Shown: positions 46,502-48,413 of the stretch, in pieces
Numbering within the stretch: the stretch's first letter is position 1
Layout of the letters: each line of letters starts with the position of its first letter
The notes under the pieces: model-generated
The model's database searches: none
Seen by the model: the letters and a program-made list of their open reading frames with translations, nothing else
Told to the model about the DNA's origin: nothing
Source: an uncultured Mycoplasmataceae bacterium
Lineage (GTDB): Bacteria > Bacillota_I > Bacilli_A > Mycoplasmatales > Mycoplasmoidaceae
Assembly (NCBI GenBank): GCA_947429165.1
Contig: CANEON010000001.1
Location: 62,001-126,000 of the forward strand
Length of the DNA stretch: 64,000 nt
Reading direction: 5' to 3'
Translations under genes and position numbers: made by a program

Positions 46502-46508
46502 TAAAACA

Positions 46509-46536
46509 AAAACTCCCATTTGGGAGTTTTTTTATT
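46509..46536. terminator. Bidirectional terminator between pta and the LRR lipoprotein gene
   Basis: Perfect 10-bp stem AAAACTCCCA/TGGGAGTTTT, loop TT, with T runs on both sides. It ends pta on the plus strand and the convergent lipoprotein gene on the minus strand. Confidence 0.92.
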
Positions 46537-48278
46537 GTCTTACAACTTTTCAATTAGTAACATCAAGTGAGTTTTTGCTAAGCAAATCTAAAATTTCTTT
46601 GTCAGATACATTAGCACATTTTATTAAATATATAATACCGTTATTTGGGCAACCTCTAAATAAGTTACCCGTCATTTCTCAGCTTGGTAAGCCATGAAGG
46701 TTGTTGAATTTAATTGTGTGTAAATTTAGACTTAATGCAAAAGCATCATGATATATATATGATAAGTTATTACCAGTAAATGAAATCGACTTCAATTCTG
46801 AACCGGCACCAATAAAATAACCTGTTATTTCTTTAAGTGAAGCTGGAAAAACTGCTTCTGTTAATATATGTGGAACTGCACAATAACCTAGCGTTTCCAA
46901 ACTTTCAGGAAAAATTATTTTATCAAATAATTTGTTATTATTAGAAGTTGAATCAGATGAAGAAAAAGCAAAATCGTCAATTTTTTTTAGTTTTTTTAAA
47001 TTACTCAAATCTAATGTTTTATATTGTTTAGAATTATTTAAAAAACAATCTTCGAAAGCTTCTTTCCCTATTGTTTCAAGAGATGAGTCTTGTTCAAAAG
47101 AAATCGTATAAAGTGAAGGATCATCCATAAAAGCTTTGTTATTAATGATATGTAGAGATTTTGGAAAAGATATATATTTACAAGAGATAGATGTAAAGGC
47201 ATTTACATCTATTTCATTTAAAGCATGATTCTTTTTTAAATCTAAATCATCACGAATAGAATTTGCATGACAAAACGCTGATGATCCTATAGAAGTCAAT
47301 GAATTATTCTCTTCAAACAAAATACCAGTTATGTAATCTGGAATAGTTGATTTAAAAGTAAAAATATCATAAAAAGAATTATTAGCTATTTTGTTTATTC
47401 ATCCCGGTATACATAGTTTGGTATATCCTTTATCTTTATAATCTTCTTCTTTAAATGAATAATTGAATCCTCACAATTCCCATCGATTATTATAGTTATC
47501 ATAATTTAAAACTTTATCTGGTGGCAAAACATTATAGTCAAACACTTTAAAAGAAAATTCTTCTGTATCGATTTCAAAATCTTCCGAATTTCATCTAAAT
47601 ACTATTTTGAAATTGAATCTCTCACATTTTGTAATACCTGATGTCCATGATAATTTATAAGTATTATTTTTATCTGTTTTAGTCTCACTAATGCTCAACC
47701 ATGATGGTATCTGATTATCTGATACAATAGTGCATGTAAGATCGGAAGGAATATCTTTGCTTTCTGTTGGAGAAATTAACATACTTTCTTTCGATTCGCC
47801 TTCAATTCCTTCAGATCATGAAAAATTTTGTATTCCAAAATAGCTATATTGAATATAAATTTTTTCTTTTACGTTCAATGTGAACAAATTTGAAACAACA
47901 TAATCATCACTATTAATTTTTGATACAGTTTTAACTCTAAAACTATATGATTGGTTTTTGTGTAATGCTTTCCCGTTTCATGAAAATTGGCAATTGTTGT
48001 TATAAGGCAGTAAGTCAACCCATGTATCAATATGTGTATCTAACTCATCAATAATTTCTCATTTTAAGTCAGGAACGTTTGATTCATCTTTTGTATTAAT
48101 AGTTAAAATATTATCTGTTTTTTTAGGTTGCCCTTCTCTTATATCAATATCATAACTATTACATTCACATAACAAATTTGATTCATGGTGTTTACACGAA
48201 GTTAATGATGGAGAGACTACACAAATTGAAGACAGCGACAACAAACCCAAACTAAATATTTTTCAAATTTTTTTTCAT
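46532..48278 (-). pseudogene. Second BspA-type LRR lipoprotein, out of frame at a poly(A) tract (possibly phase-variable)
   Basis: An ideal AGGAGG site at 48282-48287 precedes the ATG at 48278, but after ATG the run of eight As puts the reading into a TAG at 48252. With seven As the frame would read MKKIWKIFSLGLL..., a lipoprotein signal with Cys in SLTSC, and continue as 581 residues to TAA at 46532. The rest is intact: Ig-like Trp-rich half, then LRR_5 units such as LTSIGSSAFCHAN, NNKAFMDDPSLYTI, SLETIGKEAFEDC. Only the first codons are out of frame, so this looks like an OFF state or a sequence error, not decay. Confidence 0.8.
48268..48275 (-). repeat. Poly(A)8 tract at codons 2-4 of the LRR lipoprotein gene
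   Basis: Eight As on the minus strand right after the start codon. Loss of one A restores the full-length frame; tracts of this kind slip during replication. Confidence 0.8.
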
Positions 48279-48300
48279 TTTTCCTCCTAATGTATACAAC

Positions 48301-48355
48301 AAAAAAATCTATTAGTGCGTTAATACACCAATAGATTGATTAACAACAGTTAATC
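48301..48355 (-). terminator. Terminator-like hairpin and second stem in the lipoprotein leader
   Basis: On the minus strand a 12-bp stem (AATCTATTGGTG/CACTAATAGATT, one G-U, loop TATTAACG) is followed by seven Ts, only 23 bases before the lipoprotein ATG. A perfect 7-bp stem GATTAAC/GTTAATC at 48338-48355 abuts it. It may end the upstream carrier/TM2 transcript or act as an attenuator for the lipoprotein gene. Confidence 0.7.
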
Positions 48356-48364
48356 TATTATCTA

Positions 48365-48382
48365 ATATATATATATATATAT
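48365..48382. repeat. (AT)9 dinucleotide repeat
   Basis: Nine AT units upstream of the LRR lipoprotein leader. Dinucleotide runs of this length can vary in copy number and change promoter spacing. Confidence 0.75.
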
Positions 48383-48413
48383 TGACTTTGTCATATAAAA
48401 ATATTATACTAAA

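Follow-up and report, generated by a model that had tools for sequence, protein, structure and literature searches.

Locus and Reading Frames

The 64-kb window (the whole stretch of DNA analyzed here) belongs to a genome of 710 kb in 7 contigs. It carries, on its minus strand, a gene for an LRR lipoprotein whose ATG is out of frame with the rest of the coding sequence. Features at the gene start and in the coding region are as follows (window coordinates).

48283..48288, minus strand: Shine-Dalgarno AGGAGG (from sequence)
48276..48278, minus strand: ATG start codon (from sequence; sister species G035 uses the same start, in frame)
48268..48275, minus strand: poly(A)8 tract; sister species G035 has A7 (from sequence)
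48252..48254, minus strand: TAG stop, ninth codon of the ATG frame (this assembly; from sequence)
46532..48268, minus strand: LRR lipoprotein open frame, 578 codons plus TAA, code 4 (frame reading)
48194..48196, minus strand: lipobox cysteine (LTSC) of the signal peptide (motif in the lipoprotein frame)
47030..47308, minus strand: best-scoring BspA-type LRR_5 stretch, residues 321-413 (Pfam; PDB relative 4gt6 by sequence)

A sequence-only reading of this DNA had reported the AGGAGG, the ATG, the eight As, and the TAG at codon 9, all of which were confirmed; that the gene lies on the minus strand and needs genetic code 4 are additions to its text. The ATG frame reads ATG AAA AAA AAT TTG AAA AAT ATT TAG (minus strand). 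The lipoprotein frame has ATT as its first codon (48268), ends with TAA at 46532 after 578 sense codons (with TGA decoded as Trp), and contains a TTG at 48250, one base past the TAG. The earlier arithmetic, by which removal of one A gives 581 residues in 1746 bases, is correct, and the proposed joining of the two frames by the loss of one A is borne out by G035, which carries A7 with the ATG in frame. Further lesions elsewhere in the gene, which the same reading had named as grounds for its rejection, were looked for, and none was found in the 1.74 kb of the gene; the sole lesion is at the poly(A) tract. Because intact open reading frames (ORFs; ~55) cover about 97% of the rest of the window, and because the sister species holds the in-frame form, the off-frame start is beyond chance.

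The neighboring frame, as claimed, encodes a lipoprotein: its 578 open codons begin with a typical signal (IWKIFSLGLLSLSSICVVSPSLTSC) that has a charged n-region, a hydrophobic core, and a lipobox Cys (found by script and by eye, in a frame that the sister allele links to its ATG). A match to Pfam LRR_5 (E value, 1.7e-17; 64 bits against a curated cut-off of 27.7) places the protein among the BspA-like (TpLRR) proteins. Its nearest solved relatives by sequence are LRR surface proteins (e.g., 4gt6), and we infer that the lipoprotein is displayed on the cell surface. Upstream lie genes for a DcuC-type transporter and a 121-residue membrane protein; downstream and convergent is a putative phosphate acetyltransferase-like gene, named by reading its sequence.

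The protein could conceivably be made despite A8, either from a mixed mRNA pool produced by RNA polymerase slippage or by ribosome re-initiation at the TTG (48250), but we hold this to be highly improbable. The TTG does lie in the lipoprotein frame directly past the stop, and transcriptional slippage in poly(A) tracts reportedly rescues frameshifted genes in insect endosymbionts (PMC3017870). However, initiation at the TTG would leave the signal peptide devoid of Lys and would lack a Shine-Dalgarno of its own, and in this genome, unlike those of the endosymbionts, the census of start tracts turned up no frameshifted housekeeping start.

Sister-Species Allele

The same locus, with the same gene order, is present in one other genome of the genus (G035, CATEWF010000050.1, an uncultured Mycoplasmatota metagenome-assembled genome), where the gene is intact and its ATG runs in frame through A7. 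A protein search of genome contigs returned a single relative, the sister species; a DNA search of 95 family genomes gave no further copy, and a pattern scan of viral contigs gave no match to the 5' end of the gene. Two further features were defined by comparison with G035.

46510..48277, minus strand: segment nearly identical to G035, with a divergent inner patch at 46896-46688 (alignment against L085/L086)
46508..46531, minus strand: intrinsic terminator 3' of the gene, the right edge of the shared segment (sequence comparison)

From 48277 down to 46896 (the first 1.38 kb), the alleles differ by four substitutions and one A; they are ~10% different in the inner patch and identical from there to 46510. 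The gene body is thus about 99% identical between the species, whereas the flanks over 20 kb are 66 to 92% identical, which points to a recent interspecies exchange of the coding region. On this comparison, we take the gene body to have been swapped recently between the two species; the exchanged segment is bounded by the ribosome-binding site/start on one side and the downstream terminator on the other. Purifying selection is an implausible cause of the likeness, given 0.3% divergence versus about 15% in the flanks, housekeeping genes among them. A chimeric metagenome contig is unlikely, since the sequence in common at the left edge spans only ~14 bases and several junctions would be needed to account for the divergent inner patch.

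The two alleles bear on a second explanation, that of a fixed loss, in which the gene is a young pseudogene: a dispensable surface gene that broke first at its poly(A) and has not switched back. Each of the four substitutions in the first 1.38 kb is nonsynonymous, which speaks for such a loss, but not significantly so (p 0.32). Against such a loss stand the clean remainder of the 1.74-kb gene, the intact and near-identical allele of the sister species, and the recent exchange, which suggests that the gene is still useful. We consider a fixed loss unlikely; counts across the genome, given below, weigh on both sides of it.

Start-Codon Tracts across the Genome

All 38 ATG-A(7+) sites of the genome were collected and then classified; the start of this LRR lipoprotein gene is C1:110278 in the census. 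Three of seven surface-gene starts were out of frame at the tract (C1:110278, C1:238829, and C1:273320), versus none of 15 other gene starts (Fisher p 0.023; classes were assigned from the sequences, and the enrichment tests are post hoc and on small numbers). In-frame start tracts were those of the 15 nonsurface genes (e.g., fba, recA, rplS, sufB, and pfkA, named from sequences) and of four surface genes. In stretches totaling 372 kb that were sampled from the genome, 445 A/T tracts of ≥7 inside ORFs (327 kb) were in frame, and off-frame surface starts were enriched relative to these tracts (3/7 versus about 2/447, p 2e-5, again post hoc). The counts favor a process concentrated on surface-gene starts. 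In a wider survey, no general excess of the OFF state was found in relatives, where long genes behind SD-ATG-A(8+) are in frame.

These counts also speak to a consensus or assembly error in the homopolymer, by which the true tract would be A7 and the gene simply on. The lesion does amount to one homopolymer length, and an operon at C1:237-239 kb holds three tract frameshifts within ~1.6 kb; on the other side are the 445 other tracts that are in frame and the confinement of off-frame start tracts to surface genes. Two-color short-read sequencing seldom miscounts A8, and the long poly-G run at the terminus of contig C4 (L038:5250-5304) is likely an artefact of that chemistry, which would make an error at this tract less credible still. 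We regard such an error as very unlikely.

Other frameshifted or decayed surface or accessory genes were found in this genome. At C1:273320 (L036:1367-3321, minus strand), an LRR protein gene of ~650 codons is off frame at an A7 past its ATG and meets a stop after four codons. A 214-codon lipoprotein gene at C1:238829 (L020/L124), for which no homolog was found in the genus, is off frame at an A7 past its ATG. The acyltransferase-like gene 3' of it has two more tract frameshifts (A7 and T8), which weakens the case for C1:238829 as a second switch; the C1:237-239 kb operon probably reflects decay rather than switching. An LRR lipoprotein pseudogene at C1:354520-356774 (L110) has several frameshifts, and its signal peptide is interrupted by a nonsense codon.

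Slippage-made pseudogenes are present in this genome, and decayed surface/accessory genes lend support to a fixed loss, as does the fact that, in so AT-rich a genome, indels arise most often at poly(A) tracts. The chance that the start tract would be the one struck in all three off genes is about 1 in 10, as estimated from counts of tracts of at least 7. It also counts against a switch that ATG-A(6-8) is common without a regulatory role, given Lys-rich signal peptides and an AT-rich genome.

Leader and Promoters

The gene is preceded by a leader with the following features.

48403..48408, minus strand: putative -10 box TATAAT (from sequence)
48365..48382, minus strand: (TA)n run in the leader (from sequence)
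48338..48355, minus strand: leader hairpin 1 (GATTAAC-TGTT-GTTAATC), overlapping a possible antiterminator (fold z, -6.7)
48306..48337, minus strand: leader hairpin 2, a 13-bp intrinsic terminator with a T run, upstream of the ribosome-binding site (fold and sequence)

The ~28 bases between the leader terminator and the ATG are too few to hold a promoter, which must therefore be located before the terminator. The two-hairpin leader with its terminator was found at 48299-48392 of the window (minus strand), at L038:1560-1627 (minus strand), and at L210; it precedes a gene for a 195-residue membrane protein on C4, the homolog of that gene in G030, and the G035 gene, and it is thus common to two unrelated membrane/surface gene families. 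Hairpin 1 is kept in the G035 and C4 leaders and less well in G030. We infer that the leader acts as a transcription attenuator, possibly an undescribed element; a search of Rfam gave no matching family.

The LRR lipoprotein genes of relatives carry poly(A) of another kind, in a TTGTTGC-like box, A(15-20), and (A/G)AGTATA arrangement ~30 bases before the ATG.

L072, L073, L082, L197, L198, L201, L202, L203, and L205 (genomes G030 and G032-G035): A15-A20 spacer between a TTGTTGC-like -35 and a TATAAA-like -10

These spacers are candidates for transcriptional phase variation of the BspA/LRR family and resemble Mycoplasma hyorhinis vlp, in which poly(A) lies in the promoter region (PMC10502178), in placing promoter poly(A) ahead of lipoprotein genes. 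Unlike in vlp, promoter poly(A) is not the mechanism of the gene studied here, which has no long poly(A) in its own upstream region; corresponding spacers in this genome are mostly A5-A8, and two other genes have A14 and A15 upstream.

Interpretation

The switch proposed in the sequence-only reading remains the best-supported account of the locus, qualified by the slippage-made pseudogenes described above. It is favored because the single lesion is at the tract, the near-identical sister allele is in frame with A7, and off-frame starts are confined to surface genes. We consider it probable that this surface lipoprotein gene undergoes reversible, slipped-strand translational phase variation and that this assembly caught it in the OFF state. 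Slipped-strand mispairing in the poly(A) directly past the ATG would alter the tract length by one: with A7, as in the sister species, the ATG would be continuous with the signal peptide, giving the BspA-like LRR lipoprotein; with A8, as in this assembly, the ribosome would stop at codon 9 and the lipoprotein would not be made. The tract lengths seen in nature (A8 in this assembly and A7 in G035) come from a comparison between two species, and frequent and reversible slippage within one population is what the switch would presumably entail.

In the Mycoplasma hominis vaa adhesin, A8 is ON and A7/A9 are OFF at 1e-3 to 1e-4 (PMC524362). Both vaa and the present gene encode surface lipoproteins with a 5' coding poly(A) of 7 to 9 in which a change of ±1 puts the gene out of frame; unlike vaa, the present gene encodes a BspA-type LRR protein, has a tract that abuts the ATG, and is predicted from its sequence to switch. 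In Mycoplasma fermentans p78, an ABC-transporter lipoprotein gene, a one-base change in a 5' poly(A) of 7 is inactivating, according to the part of PMC2831843 that cites Theiss and Wise (1997). On that account, both are surface lipoprotein genes with a 5' poly(A) and have A7 as the open form; they differ in gene, operon, and species, the closed form here being A8. With a 5' coding homopolymer, a ±1 frame change, and the remainder of the gene intact, the locus matches both systems, and by this analogy the gene belongs to a kind of switch already known from mycoplasmas. An expanded BspA/TpLRR family in a small-genome mycoplasma has a parallel in "Candidatus Mycoplasma girerdii," which has expanded BspA-like LRR proteins (PMC4206474); the main text of that paper contains no word starting with "phase," so phase variation of BspA-like proteins is not reported there under that name.

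More tentatively, and as a doubtful extension, the BspA-type LRR repertoire of the genus might combine two tiers of poly(A) switches (the A15-A20 promoter spacers of relatives and the start-codon tracts seen here) with whole coding cassettes that are traded between species, their cuts falling at the ribosome-binding site and at the terminator, so that the recipient keeps its promoter and attenuator leader. The sharp exchange of one surface-protein ORF demonstrates movement of antigen genes between species that are otherwise ~15% diverged. If the switch is real, the BspA/LRR lipoproteins, here in an uncultured mycoplasma genus, would be added to the proteins subject to poly(A) phase variation, and tract counting in metagenome reads would provide a simple, culture-free assay of surface switching.
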